Assembly (NCBI GenBank): GCA_021018995.1 | Contig: CM037584.1 | Location: forward strand, 174,486,317 to 174,550,316 | Direction: 5' to 3' | Origin: Chloranthus sessilifolius | Taxonomy: Eukaryota; Streptophyta; Magnoliopsida; Chloranthales; Chloranthaceae | DNA length: 64,000 bases | Part shown: positions 27,010 to 59,315 of the stretch, piece after piece | Layout of the letters: every line of letters starts with the position of its first letter | Position numbering within the stretch: the first letter of the stretch is position 1 | The notes under the pieces: generated by a model | The model's input: only the letters and a program-made list of their open reading frames with translations | Told to the model about the DNA's origin: nothing | Database searches by the model: none | Translations under genes and position numbers: made by a program

Positions 27010-30000
27010 ATCTAGGCCCTCGATATCGGGTAAGGATTCTGGGTCCTTTAGGGACTAAGTCGTACGATAGCACTAACACACAACGTTTTGTGAAATCAGG
27101 AATTTATGGCTCCACGACGCAGGGAAGCAAATAGCTCTCAGGTGAATGAGGCCTCATCACATGAAGGTCCTCAAGAATCTGAAGCGATGCGCCTATTACG
27201 TGAGATGGCGACCACATTCAGTCAGCAAATGACTCAGCTGACGCAGTCGCACCAACAAGAAAGGACTCAGCTACTGCACGAAATGGAGGTGCAAAGAGAA
27301 CAACAAAGAGAAGCGGTCCAAGAGTTGGTTAATCAACGCCAACCTACACCTCAACACGAGAACCCACCATATACCCCTGTCGGATTTCAAGTATTCAGCA
27401 GAGCTCGACCTCCCTATTTCCATGGTCAGCTTGACCCAGTCGCTGCTGAAGATTGGATAAGTACTATCGAAAAATTCTTCGGGATCTCCTCTGCGAAACA
27501 CGAAAAAGTGAAGTGGGCGGCGTTTTATCCGGATCGAAGCGAGAATTGGTGGAAGGCGGCCAAGAGAGTAGATCAAACAACGAAGAAGAGTGGACTTGGC
27601 AGTTCGAGAAGTCTACTTCAAAAGTATTTCTCGGCGACCACCGGTATGCGAAGAAGAAAAGAATTCATGGACCTCGACAAGGGAACATGACGGTGGCGAT
27701 CTGAGGCCAAGTTTGACCAAATATCCAGATTTCTTTGGGAATCGATTCTGTAATGACGATAAACTCTTTCGCATTTTAGAGCGGCTTGCTACCATTCTTT
27801 CGCGAAATTGGCGCGATGAAGATAGAATCATACGGAGAACTTGTAGATCATCTGCGCAGATCCGTGAGAGAATCGGGTGAAATGCTTAATGTATGAATGC
27901 CGATTTGAGGTTCAAGGGCAAAGCTATTCAAGGGGCTCTTTGTCCCACGAGACCAAGCCCAACTTTCTCCCAAAGAACGTATTTCCTCGTGCTCAAGATG
28001 AAAATAAACGGCCACGCCACACCGCAGACACAAGTGGGTTCCACTTTCCCAAGAGGAAATGTCATTCCACAGCCCACATCACCACAACGAGTTCGGACTC
28101 TTACGAACCTTGCACAAGATGCGGCAGGAGACACAAGCCTGGAGTATGCATGCAAGGCACCGGAAAATGTTTCAGGTGCGGAAAAGAAGGACACATGGTT
28201 AAGGACTGCCCCGAGAGAGCTCCGATATTAGGCTCTCAATACAGTACTCAAGCGAATCCTACGAGCCAAGGCCGCATCTTTGCAATTTCGCAGCAGGACA
28301 CTATGGCTAGCGACGAAGTTATTCAAGGTACCTTTACTACAAATCCAGTTATTTTTCTTTATGTATTTCAAGTGATTATTTTCATAAACCTTGTTTTATA
28401 AAATTTCTTGTATTAATTCAATAAAACTGTAAATCAAATTGTTGCACTTGAAAATACTTTAACACGCCATATGCTAACAGGTAATCTCTCCGTTTATCAG
28501 CATAAGTGCAGCATTAAACACTTAGCTTTTGTTCTTATAAACTCAGGGTCTACGCATTCTTTCATCAGTCCAGGGTTTATGTATGAAATTCAAGCTAGTC
28601 CCGTACCCTTAGAAAGGAGATTGACTATCTTGACACCGTCCGGAAACACCATGATGGCTACTTTAATCTGTCGAGACACGTTAATAAATATTAAAGGCCA
28701 TGATCTTCCTAGAGGTCTCATCGTCTTTGGAATTTCAGGATTTCGATATCATTTTGGGCATGGACTGGCTAGCCACATATCATGCCACGGTTGACTGCTT
28801 CTCAAAAGTGGTCACCTTCCAACCACTCGGAGAACCTCCATTCAGATTTCGGGGAATTAAAAGAAAGGGAGTACCTTTATTGGCAGCTTTAAACGAGGAG
28901 CAAGACAAGACAGTCGATCCTACAAAAATCCCAGTCGTCAGAGATTTTGTCGACGTATTTCCTGAAGACTTACCCGGTGTACCACCCGACCGAGAAATTG
29001 AGTTTAAAATCGATCTGATCCCAGGGACCACAGCAATTGCCAAGGCACCATACCGAATGGCCCCTGCAGAATTAAAGGAATTGGAAATACAACTCAAGGA
29101 ACTGTCAGATAAGAAATTCATCAGACGAAGTCAGTCACCATGGAGAGCCCCAGTCCTCTTCGTAAAGAAAAAAGATGGTTCGATGAGGCTATGCATCGAT
29201 TATCGTCAGTTGAATAGTGTAACCATCAGAAATCGATACCCTCTCCCACATATCGATGATTTATTCGATCATCTCCAAGGTGCCAAGTGTTTTTCTAAGA
29301 TTGATCTTAGATCGGGTTATCACCAGCTGAAAGTGAGAGAAGAAGATATTCCAAAAACGGCTTTCGCTTGCAAGAATGGGTTGTACGAATTCTTAGTCAT
29401 GCCTTTTGGACTAACAAATGCCCCAGCTGTATTCATGGACCTAATGAATCGGGTGTTCAGGCTGTATCTTGATAAATTTATCATTGTATTCATAGATGAC
29501 ATCCTCATCTACTCACGATCAGAGGAAGAGCATGAGAAACACCTGCGTCTAGCACTTCAGACACTCCGAGATCACCAGTTGTATGCCAAACTCAGTAAGT
29601 GTGAGTTTTGGCTTAAACAAGTAACTTTTCTGGGACACGTGGTATCAGCAGAAGGAGTGACTGTCGATCCTTCTAAGATCAAAGCAATTACAGAGTGGAA
29701 AGCACCGACGAGTGTTACCGAAGTTAGGAGTTTCCTCGGATTGGCGGGTTACTATCGTCGCTTTATTGAAGGATTTTCACGCATCGCTCTACCGCTCACC
29801 CGCCTCACACAGAAGAATGTCAAATTTGTGTGGACCGATGAATGTGAATCAAGTTTTCTAGAACTGAAGAAGAGGCTTACTACTGCACCAATCCTCACCC
29901 TACCTTCCACTTCCAACACTAGTGAATTTGAAATATTCACAGATGCATCTCGCCAGGGACTTGGTGGTGTGCTTGAACAAAGTAAGAAAGTTATCGTTTA

Positions 30001-30955
30001 TGGGTCAAGACAGCTCAAACATCATAAAAAGAACTATCCGGTTCATGACTTAGCGATTATCTTCACCCTCAAACTATGGCGCCACTACCTCTCTACTAGA
30101 GACGTTCAAGATTTATACGGATCACAAAAGTCTCAAGTACCTTTTCTCACAAAAGGACCTGAATTTGAGACAACGTAGATGGATGGAATACATGAAAGAT
30201 TACGACTGCTCCATAAATTACCACCCCGGAAAAGCAAATGTCGTCGCTGATGCACTTAGTAGAAAATCTTCGGCACTATTAGCCAGATTAAAAATTTGGA
30301 AGCCCTTCAATGAACTCGCCGAAGAAGACATTTACCTCCAAGAGATTGACGATGGTGTATATTTGGCACGAATTGTGATGAGTCCGTTCATTTTGGACAA
30401 AATCAGGGAAATACAACGTTTGTACCCAGAGATCCTCAAAATCATTGAAACCATAGGATCGAAACCCGATTTCAGCCTAAGGACGGATGAGATGTTACTC
30501 TTCAGACAAAGACTGTGCGTACCCAATGACCCTCAAGTGAAAAAGGAGATACTTGATGAAGGTCACAAATCAGGATACTCCGTACATCCAGGCAGTACGA
30601 AGATGTATCGAAATCTGAGAAATTGGTATTGGTGGCCGAATATGAAACGGGAAATAGCCGAATACGTGTCGAGATATTTAGTGTGTCAACAAGTCAAGGC
30701 AGAACATCAAAAATTGGCCGGACTTATACAATCCCTACCCATCCCGGAATGGAAGTGGGAAAACATATCTATGGACTTCATCGTAGGTCTACCAAAGACG
30801 ATAAAGAAGAATGATGCAATCTGGGTTATCGTTGACAGATTGACCAAGTTAGCTCATTTCTTACCATTCAAGACTACCACAGATGGGAACAAACTTGCCG
30901 AAACATACATGGGGTCCCAATCAGTATTGTCTCTGATCGAGACTCCAAATTTTTT
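27010..30955 (+). mobile_element. Ty3/gypsy chromovirus fragment (fossil), internal region only
   Basis: Inserted after copia reverse transcriptase sequence. Parts: gag 27106-27690 (MAPRRREA start; ARPPYFHGQLDP); two-part zinc knuckle about 28110-28215 (CFRCGKEGHMVKDC); protease near 28530 (SGSTHSFISPGF); reverse transcriptase 28990-29560 ([12 protein letters not shown]); RNase H 29900-30260; integrase from about 30540, incomplete. No LTR of its own orientation is present at either end. The reverse transcriptase section is well preserved, but the element is broken in several places. It belongs with the chromovirus at 35.5-45.2 kb by sequence style, although the two are clearly different copies. 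Confidence 0.8.
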
Positions 30956-45991: not shown

Positions 45992-47454
45992 CAATCTCTC
46001 ACTTGTTTTTAAAAAAAAAAAGTGTATCAGAGCGATTATATTAAACATCATCAGAGGTACCGTTCGATTTGAACTTTTGATTAGTGCATACAACTCAAAA
46101 ATTTATAAGGACTTTAAGTAGCTTATAGATTTGAACTTAAAACATGCCTAACAAACCGGAATTATATATATACTTACTATGACCTAAATCATTAGTGACA
46201 TAAGGCTTGCGCTTTACAGTCATGCCCTAAAATCCTGATTTTATGAGTATCTTAGAGAGATAGTCGAATATCTGTTTAAGCGTCTTCACTTTCATACTCA
46301 TATAGGTGAATTTGTCATGGGTGCTCTTGTAACTATTTATCATCCCAATAAATGAATGCCTATAAAATCATTAAGAGTTAAACTCATCCTCTCACATTAC
46401 GAGAGATGTGCACAAAATTTAACACCATAGCGATAGCCAATAGGTAACATATTTTTGTGTACTTTCAAAGATCACGAAGTAGTTTTTTATCTTGTTGAAC
46501 CCAAGACTTGAGATCTCCAACTCTACTAAGTTGAGATTCAACTACCGTGCCTTTAAAGATATCGATGTTAGGCCCTACCCTCCTTGATGTTCTCAACACT
46601 GTATCTCTGAGTAATGCTTTTGTAAGCAGATTCACAAGCATCTTAGAAGTTGGTATGTAGTCCAACATGATCACCTCATCACTCAACATCTGTTGAGTGA
46701 TGTTATATGTAAGACATATATGCCTTGATTTTCCTTTATATTTCTTATTACCTGAAATTTGCACAACTTTATTATCACAATAAATATTAATTGTATATAT
46801 ATGTTGAATCAAAAGAATTTATCTTATGAAGCTTTGAAGTCACCCTGCTTGTAGACAATGCTATATACTATGATCTTATACTTGAATAAAAAAATATGTT
46901 TGTTTTCTAGGCCCTCACAATACTGCTTCTTTTGTCAAAATAAAAATTTATCTGCTTGTTGATTTTGAATCAGAGGAGTCAAAAATCCAAGTAGCATCAG
47001 TAAACCCATTTAAGAGTTCATGTTTGCCACTATATAGTAAATTATAATTCATAGTTCCTTTCAAGTATCTCAACACCCTACAAATAGCTTCCCAATGTTT
47101 TGACCCTGGGTTACTAGTAAATCTATTAATTCCCCTACTATAAATACTATATCGGGTCTAGCATATTTCATTAAATATATAAGGCTTTCATTTCAGTGAT
47201 GATAAACCGTAATTCCTGAATTTGTTCAAAAATTGATTTATCCTCAGCCACCTTAAAATCAAATATTTAGCTGCTAGAAAAGTCTTGATACCTATATCTT
47301 CAGCTAGATATTTCTTCTCTAATGTATCACATAAATCTTTAGTCGTATTGCACTTACAGAATGTGTTGAACAACCTATTGTCAGTGCATTGAGGATGTGA
47401 TTTTAAAAATCTTGATCATTTTCCCATCATTTGAGTCCAACGTCCAATCCTCCA

Positions 47455-47467
47455 CACTACAAAAAAC
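47455..47467 (+). repeat. Left terminal inverted repeat of the CACTA element
   Basis: CACTACAAAAAAC, complement of the right end (53025-53037) apart from its inner bases. The CCA duplication lies directly to the left. Confidence 0.9.
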
Positions 47468-47739
47468 ATAAGGTTTGGTGGCGGCTGCCTAATTCCAGCC
47501 GTCGGCGTAAAGTCGAATTAGATGGGTCAACCCACTCGAGCCAACCCCGCGACCCACTCAATCTGGCGTTTATATATGTTTCGTTTCTCGGCGAAACCCG
47601 CTTCATCACCGAAACACCAAAAACTAGAAAGATTGGTTGCCCTAGCGAAGAAGGCTCGGCAGCTCTCCACCAAATAAAATCGACTGACCCTCCGCTCTGG
47701 CTCTCTCCCAATCCTTCTCTCACTCAATCATCGCGCTCA

Positions 47740-48022
47740 GCTTCTCAATATCTCTTCTCCTCTCTCGCTCCCTTTTGCCCTAAATCCCCTTTCGATTCCC
47801 TTCTCGTACAAGGTTTTGACGCCGAGCAGATTTGGCAACAATTCGATCTCCAGACGCAGCCTCTGTTATCCAATCTCCGTCGAGAGTTGAATCGGTTCCA
47901 GCAAGATCCTGCCAAAATTTCAAGTATTTTCAGCGGAGAAATCGCCGAAAAGGTCGTAGAAGAGAAAGGTGAGCGATGAAGACAAAGATGATGAAGAATC
48001 AGAAGACGACGAAGACGTTGAG
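47740..48022 (+). pseudogene. Captured 5' fragment of MPP10 (U3 snoRNP protein)
   Basis: The translation holds CPKSPFDSLL, then GFDAEQIWQQFDLQTQPLLS and LRRELNRFQQDP, the N-terminal signature of MPP10, a scaffold of the U3 small nucleolar ribonucleoprotein that acts in 18S rRNA processing in the nucleolus. An acidic stretch (SDEDKDDEESEDDEDVE) typical of the same protein follows, but one frame off, so the copy carries a frameshift near 47970. It ends at GTTGAG|GTGAAT, a possible donor site. A short piece near 48278-48321 (GEDVGDGDGDKHV) may be a further exon. The rest of the protein is absent. Sequence upstream from about 47530 may be its promoter and leader. Confidence 0.75.
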
Positions 48023-48141
48023 GTGAATTTTATAATATTATTATTATTATTTTCGTAGGGATTAGGGTTTGAGGAGTGCCTACCATTTTTTTAGATTGTT
48101 GACTTGAGATTTTTAATTTCTATCATTTGCCTGCCACTTTG

Positions 48142-48146
<5 letters not shown>

Positions 48147-48237
<91 letters not shown>
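48147..48237. repeat. (TA)n(TG)n compound microsatellite
   Basis: TA dinucleotides to about 48180, then TG dinucleotides to 48237, within the captured MPP10 region. Confidence 0.9.
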
Positions 48238-48239
<2 letters not shown>

Positions 48240-48329
48240 TTTTTTTATTTTTTTCTTATGGACTGAGTGTTTTTTAGAGTGGAGAAGATGTTGGAGATGG
48301 TGATGGAGACAAACATGTCAGGTGCATCA

Positions 48330-49361
48330 TTCTCTCTCCTATATACATTTTTGTTTTATTAATATATCGAATCCTTCAGTGTATTCAATTACATTTGTCT
48401 AGAATAAATAGCGATTTGTTCTTTTGAATTGCAGCCAATTAGTTATCACTATATTTATGTGCACACCTAACTCCTGGTCTTGTAACTAACAATATTAGAT
48501 CTGGGCAAACTAGGCCTAAACCTCTTGCCTATGCCATATTTTTTGCATCCCATCAGGCCAACTCGGCCTGTCAACTCAGCCTATTTGCAAAAAACAGGAT
48601 GATTAAATTTTCTCTGGAGTGTGGATTAACAATCCATTATAGTTTTTTTTTCCCTCATTGAAGTTAATAGTTTTTAGATTGCGAATGAATTTTTTATATT
48701 CTTTGTGCTTTGAGCTCTTCTCTGCAGCTCTGTATATGCAAATAAGTATGATACAAAGTATGTACTTGACATGGAAATGGCAGTGGCCTAGGGCTAGTTT
48801 AGTCCTGTTGTTAGCAGTACTTGTTTCATTTTGCTCTTCTATTCATTTATTTGCCATGCAAGAGAATTGGATTCCAGTGGAGTTTCTACTCTTTGCTTGT
48901 GATGGATTGTAAGTCGAGGGCTGGTCACGATACCATCTGGAAACTAGATTTTATGTTCATTGCCGCTTTATTATCTCTGCTTTTTTTTCCTGTCCTGTTT
49001 GGGTGAGGTTGAGACTTGAAAAAAATCCAACGTGATTTTTGTTGGATTATAAGTCGAGGTTTCACCTTGTTGATTGGAGCTATGCCATATGCCATTCAAA
49101 GGAGAAAAGGGGTGCCGGTATTCGGAGTTTAAAAGAGTAAAAGAGTAAAATCTTGATTTTTTTTATAGGAGCTTAACATTTATGAATTTCAAAGAGTAAA
49201 GTCTTGATTTAACTTAACATTTGTGAATTTCAAAGATTAAAGTCTTGAATTACATTAAAGATCTCCAGAAACAGGTCGAGGTATTAAACAAAGCCACCAA
49301 CTTTATCACCAACTTCATGTGATCATCTTTTAAATTTTGATTATATTTGTACCATGTGCAG
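48330..49361. other. Non-coding interior of the CACTA element
   Basis: AT-rich, no recognised exon. Probably captured intron or flanking DNA of MPP10 and starch synthase. Contains a local imperfect duplication around 49130-49245 (AAAGTCTTGATTT). Confidence 0.4.
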
Positions 49362-49825
49362 GGGATGATGTGGTGTTCATTGCAAATGATTGGCATGCTG
49401 GATTGCTCCCAGGCTAGTTAAATGCCATGTACAAAGCTAATGAACTTTACAAGAGTGCCAAGGTAATTTGTTTCCGCTTACTACTACCCATTTGGAATTT
49501 TAGCTGACTTCAGTTTTCTCAGCCTAAGACTGTTTGAATATATTGTCAGGTTATTTTATGCATACACAACATTGCCTACCAAGACATTTGCCTTTCGGAC
49601 TTCTCTCTTCTCAATCTCCGAACCAATTTAAAAGTTCTTTTGATTTTATTGATGGGTATGCTCTTAAACTTTTCACCGGAGAAACTCTATTCACTATTTT
49701 TCCGAGGAACGCCTTCGCTATGGAATCCAGTCTATTCCTTTTGTTGAGAGTTTAACGATTATATATTTTGCGTCTACGAAAAGCCTATGAAAGGAAGGAA
49801 AATAAATAGGATGAATTTGGAATGC
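49362..49825 (+). pseudogene. Captured fragment of granule-bound starch synthase (GBSS/waxy)
   Basis: Three exon pieces. Piece 1 (49362-49462), between GTGCAG and AAG|GTAATT, encodes GDDVVFIANDWHAGLLPG and, after an in-frame stop, LNAMYKANELYKSAK. Piece 2 (49550-49655), after TTGTCAG, encodes VILCIHNIAYQ, then frame-shifted text matching FSLLNLPNQF and KSSFDFIDG. Piece 3 (from about 49775) encodes YEKPMKGRKIN. These follow in order the starch synthase catalytic domain (GT5), part of the N-terminal Rossmann lobe; the real enzyme elongates amylose in plastids. Introns between pieces lie at the positions of GBSS introns. Stop and frameshifts show that it is not expressed as an enzyme. Confidence 0.8.
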
Positions 49826-50996
49826 TAAATTGTATGAACTTGGTCTATTCTTTCTTTGAGCTGTCCATCATGCAATTTTTTTTGACAATTTTTTTTGGAT
49901 GATTTTTTTTTTCTTTTTTTATAAACTTTCTTGGGTTTATTTGAATTACAAGACTATGAGAGGATCAGGAGACATGCAGTAAGAAAATTTGATTACTTCC
50001 ACATTGTGTAACCCATTTATGTGGTTTTAAAAGTATGCAATGAGTGCATTGACATGGATTAACTGTGATTTAACCTCATGAATGAAGATTCTGTTTGTTA
50101 AGCTTGGCTTCGTGGGTGTTTTCCATGCTTTTTGTTATTATTATTTCTAAACTCAAATGTGATCAACCTTGCTTGGAATGCATTGCCAATTGTTTCTTAT
50201 TACCTAGGAATTTATTTCTGTCTTAGAAATTTTCAAACTAATATAGTTCAGTTTTGTGCTTTCTTGCATCATCAACGGTTGTGCTCATTAGTGAATTGTT
50301 AGCGAAAAAATCATTGCCCATCTAGCTTACTCAATATATGCTCAGCCCCAGTATTTTTGTCCATTCATGTTTAGTTTAGCTCATGCATTTAATACGTGTT
50401 GCATAAATGTGAGCACAACAGATAGCATTTGTGCTCATATTCAATGGTTGTGCTCATTAGTCATTAGTAAATCATTAGCAAAAGAATCATTGCTTATCTA
50501 GCTTACTCGATCATATGGTCAGCTCAAGTAGTTGAATAGTTGGGACAGTCTAATAGGACACTTTTAACACAGGAACATAGATGATATTTTTTTCATTTTG
50601 GTTGAAGGACAGGCTTACAAGATGATGATTTCCTTGTTAATAGTTGAACTCAACATGTTCAGAACTGAACATATTCGGAATAGGTATTCTGAAATTGCTG
50701 GTGACTATATGAACCTTAAATAGCTGATTTTTTTTTTTTAAGTTTATCTCTTCGGTTGGTGAGAGCTGCAAGGTCGGTTGGTGAGAACTGAACATATTCG
50801 CACTCTTATGCACATGTTACCACATTTCGGCATATGCATGTCTTTTTTGTGTGTATTTTTTTTTTTCCTTTTTGTTTTCATGCTTACTCGCATTTGACTT
50901 TGCATTTGCATGTGGTAAGCATTTATTAATTTCTCTATTTTTTATGTTCTTGTTCTTAATGTCGGGACTTATTCTGCTTCTTTTTTTCCATTGCAG
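49826..50996. other. Non-coding interior of the CACTA element
   Basis: T-rich sequence without recognised exons. A duplicated phrase (GTTGTGCTCATTAGT.., AAATCATT.., ATCTAGCTTACTC) occurs at about 50278-50345 and 50447-50520. Confidence 0.4.
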
Positions 50997-51210
50997 GCTT
51001 ATTCCACTATTGGCACTCCTGATTATATTACCTCTGAGGTTTTGTTAATAAAAGGCTATGGAATGGAATGTGATTGGTTAGTTTTTTTTCTTTGTAGTTA
51101 GTAATATACTTCTTAGATCACTGGCAATTATATTTGTACCCTAAACTTGCTTTTTTTCAAAGGTGGTCACTTGGAGCAATTATGTATGAGATGCTTGTTT
51201 GTATAATTCT
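50997..51210 (+). pseudogene. Captured fragment of an NDR-type (AGC) protein kinase
   Basis: Piece 1 (50997-51076), after TTGCAG, encodes [12 protein letters not shown] and [15 protein letters not shown], the activation-loop/APE region (APE reads TSE here). Piece 2 (51163 to about 51205), after TCAAAG, encodes WSLGAIMYEMLVC. A GATTG|GTTAG donor and AAAG acceptor bound an 86-bp intron, and the two pieces join in frame (CDW|WSLG). This wording is diagnostic of plant NDR/LATS-related AGC kinases. ATP-binding and catalytic-loop exons are absent, so it cannot be a working kinase. Confidence 0.8.
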
Positions 51211-51838
51211 TCTTTGGGATTGGTTCTTGTTTGTATAATTCTTATTCCATATTGCATCAAACTATCAAACAGTGGTCATAAGATGTGCCACGTGACATCT
51301 TATGTAACTGACGAAGGGTCTACTAGAGCCAAAAACAATACTAGTTACATCTTATGTAACTATCAAAGCATATTCTTTGGATATGCTTTGATACCATAGT
51401 TTCAAAAACAGAATGATGTAAACTGGTAAATAAAACAGATATTGGTATAATATAGAGATAAAAGAGAAGAAGGTTGCAAAGGAAAAGGATTTAAAAAATT
51501 CTCCTTGCAAGGTAGGTAGGATTTTTGTACCAAACACTTATCATCAGTTGTAAGTTCAAACTCTTACCAATATGGTAAGTCACCAAACACTTTTCACAAC
51601 ATTAGATTTAATTTTGATTGCGTGATAAAAGCCCCAACATACATGTGAGAAAATCATCAATGGAATTTTTTATTTGATCAGTGCAAAGCCATAATTTCAT
51701 TAACTAAAATGAATTACAACAGATCAAATAGAGAAAAAAAGAAAGAACAACAAAACAAAAATGAAGACGTGATGGTTCAAAACAAACAAGGTTAAGGACT
51801 ATGATCAATTTTAATTGCTTGATTGTTTCTTCATGCAG
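51211..51838. other. Non-coding interior of the CACTA element
   Basis: A CATCTTATGTAACT phrase is repeated at about 51295 and 51345. No exon recognised. Confidence 0.4.
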
Positions 51839-52604
51839 AAAATCTGCATTCTCGGTCCTCTACAACAGATACTCTTTGGAACAAGGTTGTCTTCTAGAGC
51901 GGTGAATTCTTTACCTCATCAAACTCCCAGGCAACGTGGTAATGTTTGGGATAGGCTGGGGAAGCCATGTGCAGGCAACTATGATGTGATGGATGAGAAA
52001 AATTATATGCTTGGCATCAATATTGTCAAAAGGATAAAGATGGTGAACAATGGGGAAGGCCTTGGCAATAGCGAGTTGACATGGGTTGTGCCGGTGATGG
52101 AGCCAGATAAAGTCAATGAAAGAAATCGATGGGGTTGATAATGGTTACCACGAGGTTATCACCAGCTCCCCATGCCGATGATCTTATAAAACGGAAGCAT
52201 GGCATCAATCGACGGTATGCATCATGATGCATGTGATTCTAGGAGGAAAAGGCACTTGGTGTGATCTCACCGGTAGTAAGTCGGGCTGTCACATGGAAGA
52301 GACAAGCATCGCAAAATGAAGCAGCCTTTCAAGAGTTGCAAAGATTGACATCTGCTAAATTTAACCACTCAAAGAGCTTGAATGTCATTACTACTGTAGC
52401 AAGATCCTCAGATGGCTTTCTTTTCCGGGGCATGCCTCATTCTTTTAGACCTCCCAACACGATTGTTTAATCCAGGACATATAAAGTCTCTCAATCTCAG
52501 TCAAATAGGGAGGCTTTGATGACTACTACTACCCAGAATCTGCCTTCACTTACTAGTTCATTGCTGGCTAAATCGGATTCTCTCAATAGTGCAGAAAGCA
52601 GATG
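51839..52604 (+). pseudogene. Unidentified captured gene fragment
   Basis: After a CATGCAG acceptor-like site, open text encodes RQRGNVWDRLGKPC, YDVMDEKNYMLGINIVKRIK and NGEGLGNSELTWVVP, then stops; a second open segment from 52261 encodes QNEAAFQELQRLTSAKFNHS. Codon composition and the charged sequence look like real protein, and the VWDRLGKP phrase recalls plant CCCH/RRM-type RNA-binding proteins, but I do not recognise it firmly. It is the rightmost cargo before the subterminal repeats. Confidence 0.45.
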
Positions 52605-52759
52605 TAACAGTTATATATATACGCCCTGTTTTTGTGTTTTTGTGTGTGTGCGTGTATATATATATATAAAATTTGTGCCCAACAAAAAAGGGCGCTAATA
52701 ATTCCCTCCCCCCCCCCCACCCCCCAAAAAAAAAAAAAAATTGTAAAAAAAAAAAAATG

Positions 52760-53037
52760 GGCCTATGCCGACGGCTGCCGCCGTCGGCATAGATTAAAAC
52801 ACCTATGCCGACGGTATGAGCCGTCGGCGTAGGATTATTTATATAAATTTTAAAAAAAATTTAATAACCCTATGCCAACGGCATCCGCCGTCGGCGTAGA
52901 TTCGTGACTTACGCCGACGGCTGAAAACCGTCGGTGGTTAGATTCCCCGATGAGAATAGTACCGACGGTGTGGCGTGAGATATTACAAAATTGGCTGATT
53001 GGTTTTGACGGCGGCTTTGATATCACTTTTTGTAGTG
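52760..53037. repeat. Right subterminal repeats and end of the CACTA element
   Basis: Five to six hairpin-like pairs of GCCGACGG and CCGTCGGC with ATGCC/GGCAT flanks between 52765 and 52970, then TGACGGCGGC and the terminal TTTTTGTAGTG. Poly-C and poly-A runs (52706-52757) precede the array. Confidence 0.8.
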
Positions 53038-53479
53038 CCACTAGTCGTACTTTCTGTTGTTTCCGTTATAGAAATTAGTGGATATGGTATAGTGAGGACG
53101 TAAGCAATCTTGAATTATCGCAAGATAAATTGCACTCTTTGCTACCATCTTTTGAAATTTTATCCGCAAATTGATCAAATTTGATGAGATCTTGATTCAT
53201 AAACTTTATGCTCTGAGCTATTAGAACGATCTATTGTCTTTAAATTGTTGATAATAATTCAATAACAAACTTGTACATATTTTTCTCTCCTAAGTTTCTT
53301 TTCAAATTTTGATTTATCTTATAAACTTAATTTTGAAACAATAAAATATATATTACTATACTAATATATATATATATAACAATTTTCATATGTCACATGA
53401 AATGATCACCCCAAAACGGTATCTATGCACACAGTTGCACAAGAAAACCCATGCAACCGGTCACATTTAAACACCAAAT

Positions 53480-53850
53480 GGTTTTTAAATGATCTTACAC
53501 CATTATAATTAAATTTTTTATCTCATACCATTAAAGTTTGATTTATCATTATGCTATGAGGCACACATCTATGATCACTCTAAATTGTCCAAGTGGCAAT
53601 CTATCATTAGAATGTCTTAGCCCAATGAAACATGTCGATAAGTGGATGTGAACCATCTGATTGATGAAGTTTAATATCAATCATTCAAACTAAAAACAAC
53701 GATTGACATTATAATCCACAAATTGGATGGTTTAAATTTCCATTAATCACCATTTTTGGGTATGGTGCACTTCAATCTATGATCTACCGCTTTAATGATT
53801 CGAATCACCCACATCTTAAATCATTGATGGTGTAAGATCATATAAACACC
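53480..53850. repeat. MITE with ATGATCTTACACCAT ends, copy 1
   Basis: The left end GGTTTTTAAATGATCTTACACCATTA faces its near complement at 53826-53850. The interior contains GTGGATGTGAACCATCTGATTG, which recurs in copy 2 at about 60.83 kb. Non-coding, 371 bp. Confidence 0.65.
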
Positions 53851-53995
53851 AAACATCTTTAGGGTGCAAGTAGGGCTAGTTTGGGTCTAATCTGGGTTCC
53901 ACCGGCTTGTGTTCAATTGAGGTTAGTTTGGGTCTACTTTCTACCAAACATCTCTTTTTAAGGGAAATGGTCAGGGCCAACTAGTTGGATGCAAG

Positions 53996-54854
53996 TAGGG
54001 CTGGCAATGGCAAGGCTTAGTTCGAACTGGCCCGGCCTGACTTTGATCGGATTTTGGTTCAAATAATAGGGCTGCAACTGAGCCGGGCTGAGCCTGAGCT
54101 CGGGTCAGCTCTAGCTCGGCTCTACCATATACGAGCCGAGTTGGGGTCGGCTCTAGGATCTTCGAGCTCAAAAATTTCAATCTCTAGCTTGGTTCTCCGA
54201 GCTCGAACTGAGCTCGGGCCGAGCTTCGAGCTGAGCTCGGGCCGAGCTTCGAGCCAAATATGTTCTATTATAAAAAATGAAGTCAAAATATAAATTGCGT
54301 ACTTTTTTAGTAGATATCCTTTTGAATGACACTTATTATTTGATTTGTATCTCCTTGTTGGTTAATTTGATGGTCAAGCGATGGGTTTGAAATTTTTCTC
54401 AGACTCATGTAGCATGATGAACCTTGATGAAATTAGATCAATTGAGTGCATAACTTTTTAAAAAAATTACGAAAAATAATATATTTTTATAATAATTTGA
54501 ACTCTTGAAATATGCTTGATAATTATTGTATTCCCTTAATAAAATATATAAGTCAAGATGAAAAATATGGTAAATGAAAATACTAATTATTTTTAAAAAA
54601 TATAAAATGATAAAAATGGCTGCACTAGTTTGATTTGATTCACTAGTCATCTCAGTTTGCTCTCAAACGGAGGTGATATTGAGAGCCGTAGGTCGGAATA
54701 ACAGTGGGTACTATATAATATATAAAGTAAAAATTAGGGCAAGTGGGAGCCAAAAGTTTCAATTTTATCCTTCAAAGTAACCGTTGAATAAACTTAAAAG
54801 GTTACTTTGAAGGGTAAAATAGACCTCTCAAAGTTAATTATAAATAAATAAATA

Positions 54855-55679: not shown

Positions 55680-55783
55680 CTCTTTCAATTTGTGTGCGGG
55701 TAGCAAATATTTGGTGTGACAATAGTAACACTAGTGTTTATAACCAACCTACGTGATGCAAGACTACATAACAAGAAGAAGCA
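55680..55783 (+). promoter_or_regulatory. Promoter and leader of S-protein homologue 1
   Basis: TTTCAATTTGTGTG, TTTGGTGTG and CTAGTGTTTATAACC occur in the same order as in the region before the second gene (58738-58800), while flanking intergenic sequence is not shared. The TTTATAA word at about 55737 may be the TATA box, 45 bases from the ATG, which is short. Confidence 0.45.
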
Positions 55784-56194
55784 ATGAGTAGTGTTCTTGT
55801 GTATGTTATTACAATTTGCTTGGTATTCTCTCTGTGCGAGCCTCTAGTTTTAGGAACAAAGCCCTTGGCAAAAGTCCGCGTGACCATCGAGAACAGATTG
55901 GGATTAGGGAGGAACATGACACTTCACTGCAAATCGAGAGACGACGATCTCGGGATCCATACGGTGCCCGATGGAGGCGATTACGGTTGGAGCTTCCGAG
56001 TCAATATCATCGATTCGACGCTTTTCTTCTGCAATGTCAAATGGGAGAAAGTAGAGAGCTTCAGTTTCGACGCGTTCGTTGCAGAAACTAATGTGTGTGA
56101 GTCAGATTGTAAGGTTTTGATCCGATCCGAGGGCATATATAAATGGTATCAAGGTGCAAATTTGTGGCAATTTGCGTATTCTTGGCCAAAATAA
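55784..56194 (+). CDS. S-protein homologue 1 (plant self-incompatibility S1 family)
   Basis: Single-exon gene of 136 residues. Residues 1 to about 24 form a hydrophobic signal peptide (VLVYVITICLVFSLC), so the product is secreted. The mature domain shows the S1-family layout: a VTIENRLG strand, NMTLHCKSRDDDLG with an N-glycosylation sequon at N44, VPDGGDYGWSF, FFCNVKW, and a C-terminal WQFAYSW. Four cysteines (49, 83, 105, 109) match the two conserved disulphides. In poppy the founder proteins are stigma-borne pollen inhibitors; most plant homologues have unknown roles and flower- or stress-related expression. A sister gene in tandem, 2.7 kb downstream, shares the frame and upstream words. 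The start is the first ATG of the frame. An AATAAA word follows at about 56216. It looks intact. Confidence 0.9.
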   Translation: MSSVLVYVITICLVFSLCEPLVLGTKPLAKVRVTIENRLGLGRNMTLHCKSRDDDLGIHTVPDGGDYGWSFRVNIIDSTLFFCNVKWEKVESFSFDAFVAETNVCESDCKVLIRSEGIYKWYQGANLWQFAYSWPK

Positions 56195-56750: not shown

Positions 56751-56947
56751 GTGTCTATACCTTGATACCCTAAACCCTAAACCCTAATACTACCTTTGTC
56801 AAAGCAGCTGAACATCACCTAAAATAACGAGAGTACCATGTATTTCCAGCATAACTTTAATTTTAGATGACTTTGATTGCTTTGAATCAAATGGCGGAGA
56901 TTGCCTTTCGACCTAATATTTTGTATCATAGATTCAGTGATCACGAC

Positions 56948-58734: not shown

Positions 58735-58868
58735 TTGCTTTCAATTTGTGTGTGCATAGAAAAGTTTGGTGTGGCAATAATAATATTAGTCTATATAAAC
58801 ACCTAATAGTATATCATAATTCTATTGAATAAAAGAACGAAAGAAAGAAAAAAAGAAAGAAAGAAGTA
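58735..58868 (+). promoter_or_regulatory. Promoter and leader of S-protein homologue 2
   Basis: CTATATAAAC at 58791-58800 is a good TATA box, 69 bases from the ATG. Upstream TTTCAATTTGTGTG and TTTGGTGTGGCAATAATAA match the first gene. The leader is an unusual purine-rich GAAA repeat (58834-58865). Confidence 0.65.
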
Positions 58869-59315
58869 ATGAGTACTATTTGTTTGTATGTTATTATAAT
58901 TGTTTTGGTATTGTCTTTGTGTGATCCACTTGTATTTGGAAGAAATGTAAATGCACGCTTCGATAAAGTGTACGTGATCGTCGAGAACAAATTGGGATCC
59001 GGGGGGAACATGACACTTCATTGCAAATCGAAAGACAACGATCTCGGAGTCCACAATGTGCCGGACGGAGGTGATTTCCGCTGGTCATTTAACGTCAATT
59101 TCTTTGAGACAACGCTTTTCTCCTGCGATGTGGGATGGGAGAAAGTACCGAGTTTCAGTTTCGACGCGTTCGATGCACAAAGTACCGCGTGCGATAAAAT
59201 TTGCATGCTTGGGATCGAACCAGACGGCATTTTTCGATGGAATCAGTATAATAATAAGTGGGAACTTGCATATTTTTGGAAAGAATACCTGGATCAAATT
59301 TTAGAGAGGAATTAA
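58869..59315 (+). CDS. S-protein homologue 2 (plant self-incompatibility S1 family)
   Basis: Single-exon gene of 148 residues and paralogue of the gene at 55784. Signal peptide about residues 1-24 (ICLYVIIIVLVLSLC). The mature part follows the same plan: VYVIVENKLG, GNMTLHCKSKDNDLG with sequon N47, VPDGGDFRWSF, FSCDVGW, PSFSFDAF, then WELAYFW. Cysteines 52, 86, 108 and 112 match the four of its neighbour. It differs by about seven extra residues after the signal peptide and a charged C-terminal extension (KEYLDQILERN). Expected to be a small secreted protein, possibly a ligand; the exact role is unknown for most family members. It has the better TATA box of the two. The frame is intact, so both copies appear functional. 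Confidence 0.9.
   Translation: MSTICLYVIIIVLVLSLCDPLVFGRNVNARFDKVYVIVENKLGSGGNMTLHCKSKDNDLGVHNVPDGGDFRWSFNVNFFETTLFSCDVGWEKVPSFSFDAFDAQSTACDKICMLGIEPDGIFRWNQYNNKWELAYFWKEYLDQILERN

Follow-up and report, generated by a model that had tools for sequence, protein, structure and literature searches.

How does a single transposon come to carry pieces of several unrelated host genes, all in one orientation? The question is raised by positions 47455-53037 of the window, the 64,000-nucleotide stretch of Chloranthus sessilifolius DNA analysed here, which belongs to contig 1 of an assembly of 2.17 Gb in 32 contigs. A first-pass annotation, made from the letters alone, had read this locus as a CACTA transposon that captured fragments of MPP10, granule-bound starch synthase (GBSS) and NDR-kinase genes and an unknown fourth piece. 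The kind of element is already known (Pack-CACTA; soybean Tgm-Express1), and the surviving intermediates are the notable part of the present case. The locus is composed as follows.

47452..47454, no strand: TSD CCA, left copy (flank reading; empty site)
47455..47590, +: CACTA left end with TIR CACTACAAAAA, one subterminal repeat and TATA-like TTTATATATG (alignment; inner border at about 47590, judged by eye)
47591..48499, +: MPP10 fragment with 5ʹ leader, exon 1 (minus about 240 bp of acidic region) and part of intron 1 with SSRs (Pfam, parent match)
48497..49245, +: pieces of dispersed sequence, 48497-48908 and 48903-49145 (genome matches)
49246..49883, +: GBSS fragment, intron-exon-intron (Pfam, structure relatives, parent match)
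49884..50792, +: non-genic filler, sequence recurring at many genome places (genome matches)
50793..51198, +: NDR-type kinase fragment, two exon parts and an intron (Pfam, structure relatives, candidate parent)
51199..51287, +: filler at the junction of the left part (C6a type) and the right part (C6b type), containing TTGTATAATTCTT twice as a short internal duplication (alignment)
51288..51376, +: sequence common to the C6b region downstream of the transposase (alignment to C6b)
51377..52615, +: PWI/RRM RNA-binding protein gene fragment (parent match)
52616..53037, +: CACTA right end with GCCGACGG array and TIR (repeat count, end matches)
53038..53040, no strand: TSD CCA, right copy (flank reading)

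The element and its relatives

The 5.6-kb element is intact and non-autonomous. It opens at 47455 with the TIR CACTACAAAAA and closes with TTTTTGTAGTG, which ends at 53037, and CCA on either flank forms its 3-bp TSD. Subterminal GCCGACGG/CCGTCGGC repeats occur seven times within 46455-54037, once on the left (47499) and six times on the right (52767-52913). When the 200-base flanks are joined with one CCA, matches of 82-85% span the joint in all 40 places scored from 787 first-look candidates; the element has therefore inserted into a repeat copy, which looks like a retrotransposon. No transposase frame was seen in the ORF list or by Pfam, and the longest frame (187 aa, 47416-47979) passes through the left end into MPP10. 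Ends, duplication, subterminal repeats and the lack of a visible transposase are thus as first described, and the same ends recur elsewhere as CACTA termini.

Further copies with these ends, for which the first-pass annotation had proposed a search, are present on C12, C3 and C6. The left 601 bases find a full-length match at four places among the 35 candidates, all of which were scored: the window, C12, C3 and a locus on C6 termed C6a. The C12 copy is full, carries the same cargo as the window, aligns over 47455-53022 at 95% and has the TSD TGC. The C3 copy, with the same cargo, aligns over 47455-52954 at 95% and has lost its right end, for which no match with at most two mismatches and a matching TSD was found. 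Two full copies with different TSDs (CCA and TGC) and one with its right end lost make movement as a unit evident.

The two remaining relatives each hold one part of the element. C6a (C6:83958749 on) aligns over 47454-51198 at 97% and, beyond the end of the NDR piece in the window, continues into additional NDR exon sequence; within 26 kb it has no PWI/RRM match and no right end with at most two mismatches and a matching TSD. C6b matches only 51288-53022, at 92%, without the left pieces. It is a CACTA element of 12,145 bp (C6:4252416-4264560; TSD TTG) that encodes a putative Transposase_21 frame of 407 aa (Pfam E 3.4e-76); the window element contains nothing equivalent. About 40 bp of subterminal region found in C12 and C6b are absent from the window right end. 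The window element therefore has the structure of a left part of C6a type followed by a right part of C6b type: its left two thirds (MPP10-GBSS-NDR) are found again on C6, where the fourth piece is lacking, and its right third, with that piece, recurs in a transposase-bearing element.

A CACTA TIR, a 3-bp TSD with an empty site, subterminal repeats and a transposase-bearing relative place the element in the CACTA (En/Spm) superfamily. Without a transposase of its own, with host-gene pieces whose parents lie elsewhere (a candidate parent in the case of NDR) and with movement as a unit, it is a Pack-CACTA.

Host-gene pieces and their parents

All cargo fragments lie on the + strand, as the first reading had it. 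The MPP10 piece scores 29.7 bits against the Pfam Mpp10 family (E 3.7e-7; cut-off 29.9) and is 92% (47470-47998) and 90% (47971-48501) identical to the MPP10 gene on C1, intron included. Six MPP10 matches were found by a genome Pfam search: four on C1, one on C6 that is a lone exon-like piece, and one in the C12 element copy. The four on C1 are exon matches in one order and on one strand over about 11.5 kb (C1:39379905-39391446). In a comparison across species, the best MPP10 matches reached only 45-53% over the query. Within the element, the acidic-region deletion sits at a short repeat, and the start codon has changed from ATG to ATT in all four aligned copies. Seven synonymous and seven non-synonymous codon differences separate the window from the gene (a count that leaves out C3, where the frame is shifted), and nothing in the sequence speaks for a preserved protein.

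The GBSS piece scores barely above cut-off for the Pfam starch synthase catalytic domain (E 7.6e-5), and its best solved relatives are granule-bound starch synthases (two sequences matched). Positions 49326-49827 are 90% identical to a gene on C12; the parent match (C12:95884778-95885287) is 90% over 512 columns, with adjoining starch-synthase matches. The exon in the window has an in-frame TAG that is absent in the three other MPP10-bearing copies; its splice sites are kept in all four.

For the NDR piece, the Pfam protein kinase score is above cut-off (E 2e-8), and the best solved relatives are the NDR-type kinases CBK1 and STK38. A candidate parent lies at C6:14.40 Mb, 88% identical to the window piece over 432 columns. 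C6a matches C6:14395300-14397400 at 91.7% over 895 columns (2.1 kb compared), and the exons there are open with NDR motifs. This locus is one among at least four similar places: C6:126.58, C12:81.86 and C10:114.1 Mb match at up to 96% over 300 bp, and the next NDR exon lies close to the C6:126.58 and C12:81.86 Mb matches and 27 kb off on C10. A further locus, C4:132198500-132201000, was ruled out as the parent at only about 70-76%. Since each of the MPP10, GBSS and NDR pieces matches a gene-like locus at the DNA level in a stretch that includes intron, the similarities exceed chance, and the three fragment assignments made at first reading hold.

The fourth fragment, initially listed as unknown, is identifiable after all as a piece of a PWI/RRM RNA-binding protein gene. 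Its parent (C6:62568151-62569398; 62.57 Mb) is 96.5% identical over 1251 columns and has a 277-aa frame followed by more exons. A later exon matches RRM_1 at 19.8 bits, below the cut-off of 20.7, and the joined translation of the parent finds 36 protein matches, most of them with PWI and RRM domains. The acceptor before this exon is kept in the window and in C6b and lost in C3; in C12 no such site was located.

The parents and candidates lie at four separate places (C1:39.38-39.39, C12:95.88, C6:14.40 and C6:62.57 Mb), so an origin from genes lying side by side is ruled out; this distance and the recurrence of the ends as CACTA termini are both in accord with capture. The proposed ordering of captures by identity to the parents works only partly. 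K2P to the parent is about 0.04 for MPP10 (0.087 in C3, with a frame shift in the alignment), 0.056 (C12) to 0.100 (window) for GBSS and 0.019-0.052 for PWI/RRM; because these ranges overlap, structure is the main guide to the order.

The GBSS piece is itself dispersed: among the 40 matches listed, many span 49246-49883 at 83-94%. A GBSS-NDR block without MPP10 is found in L053-L056 and others, and in L054 the GBSS exon lies directly behind a CACTA left end. Several relatives begin at the left border, 48497, without MPP10; one (C12:88713384-88714718) carries 48497-49815 with other sequence on its left. An apparent different CACTA-like terminus, judged by eye only, is seen in L055, L056 and L060 (CACGTAGTG; CACGTAATG in L055). 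The block as a whole is widely dispersed (L053, L055, L056, L060-L063 and others). Left of it, L055 has a receptor-kinase-like piece (Pfam E 1.7e-5) and C12:88.71 Mb a lipase-like piece, seen by eye only and matching no Pfam family; given these two pieces, further multi-gene elements in this genome are likely.

The 5ʹ side of the MPP10 gene

Immediately 5ʹ of the start codon of the MPP10 gene (C1:39391500-39391766; L023) lies a CACTA left end. The gene's 5ʹ side holds element positions 16-139, and the joint is identical to that of the transposon. An alignment of about 125 bases takes in the left ends of three unrelated elements (L006-L008, compared at their left ends only), those of the four MPP10-bearing copies and the gene's own 5ʹ side; divergence begins at MPP10. 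The gene-side end has small deletions and no intact CACTACAAAAA; CAATTACAAT would be its decayed terminus. Because the gene bears a decayed CACTA end, joined where the transposon joins it, the gene is probably the launch site of the element.

Left-end K2P is 0.09-0.11 between the gene and the MPP10-bearing copies, 0.144-0.154 between the gene and L006-L008, and 0.13-0.16 between the MPP10-bearing copies and L006-L008. Gene and element differ at 13 of 129 sites in the left end, proportionally more than in the MPP10 part (26 of 630 sites; Fisher P 0.014).

A TATA-like TTTATATATG lies within the CACTA end, about 50 bases upstream of the ATG, and it may drive MPP10. It is conceivable, at slightly less than even odds, that the core promoter of MPP10 (TATA box and leader) is a domesticated CACTA left end and that the CACTA-MPP10 fusion served as the transposon's launch pad, with promoter takeover and capture arising from a single insertion; the gene is seemingly the only complete MPP10 gene found. 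A promoter derived from a CACTA end would tie gene capture to promoter takeover.

Assembly of the cargo

The cargo was, with a probability of about 0.78, assembled by the joining of elements that were already loaded, and the resulting non-autonomous element was moved in trans. Capture by the transposon, as first proposed, is thus supported, but the route favoured is joining, not the separate entry of four pieces into one element. The observed basis comprises the ends, the TSDs, the empty site, the copies, the chimeric structure, the parent matches and the common MPP10 joint. In the proposed sequence of events, a GBSS-NDR block would have circulated in older CACTA-ended elements. A CACTA left end would have come to lie directly before MPP10 exon 1, and this end with the MPP10 5ʹ part would have been joined to the block to give the C6a-type left part, the direction presumably being from the MPP10 locus into the element. 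Past the first part of the NDR piece, this left part would then have been joined to the 3ʹ end of a C6b-type, transposase-bearing CACTA that had already taken up the PWI/RRM exon. Joining may have come about when insertions lay next to each other and the inner ends were lost, or through gap repair. Once complete, the chimera would transpose as one unit, with a related transposase, for example that of the C6b family, acting in trans.

Some results count against joining. One intermediate is incomplete, since the search of 26 kb at C6a gave no right end and C3 has lost its own; no element bearing the MPP10 piece alone was found. Moreover, a single age for the joint does not simply predict a left end more diverged than the MPP10 part. 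The junction filler at 51199-51287, with its short internal duplication, and the MPP10 deletion at a short repeat both resemble repair synthesis with template switches, as would follow if a single CACTA lineage had captured the four pieces one after another, by gap repair on ectopic templates and without any joining of elements. However, each half is found on its own, one in C6a and the other in C6b, and the CACTA end at the joint is already present in the MPP10 parent, an arrangement not expected if capture had been from an untouched parent; such a history is improbable.

The joint at the MPP10 gene could also be secondary, an MPP10-carrying element having recombined with the gene and given it a CACTA end. 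Judged against L006-L008, the gene-versus-element differences fall on both sides and neither sequence is clearly nested, in keeping with this proposal, but it needs more steps (capture, then an exchange whose upper end falls at the CACTA terminus) and is unlikely, if less so than serial capture. Partly kept exon borders and splice sites are what a chimeric region duplicated as ordinary host DNA might leave, its CACTA-like ends being coincidental. Coincidence is contradicted by the TSDs, by the empty site and by independent copies that have CACTA ends as well, and the empty site together with two different TSDs refutes duplication of this kind, to which practically no weight is given.

Related systems are known. 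Soybean Tgm-Express1, at the wp locus, is a CACTA of similar size (5.7 kb) that holds exon and intron pieces from five unrelated host genes; these get spliced into F3H transcripts (PMC1947982). The window element carries other genes, is known from DNA alone and differs further in having relatives with cargo subsets in its own genome. By analogy with Tgm-Express1, transcription from the left end may yield a chimeric RNA that is non-coding or alternatively spliced. Pack-CACTAs of Arabidopsis, rice and maize are likewise non-autonomous, with CACTA TIRs, a 3-bp TSD and pieces from more than one locus (PMC8903248); maize elements often contain several loci, and the published Pack-TYPE model is a fusion of neighbouring insertions (PMC8903248; review PMC13317346), as one route suggested here. 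The window element differs in genome and cargo and in having one parent gene with a CACTA end at the capture joint. In Chenopodium, CACTA elements have captured gene pieces in their 5ʹ region (PMC8978399); as in C6b, the pieces lie inside transposase-bearing elements, but that of C6b is 3ʹ of the transposase frame. No description of the MPP10/GBSS/NDR/PWI-RRM cargo set was found in the literature searched, a statement about that literature and not print in general; the sole paper listed for MPP10 with CACTA concerns prime editing and is unrelated. Multi-gene pickup by Pack elements has mostly been argued from end products. With the product, part-cargo relatives and a CACTA-ended parent gene in one genome, joining and gap repair become testable step by step.

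Elsewhere in the window, an LTR retrotransposon frame with reverse transcriptase and RNase H lies at 28688-30175. Two open frames, at 55772-56191 and 58833-59312, have a plant self-incompatibility S1 domain (E 1.8e-25 and 7.9e-26), and two further CACTACAAAAAATAAGAC starts, at 56947 and 57210, apparently belong to another TE family with similar tips.
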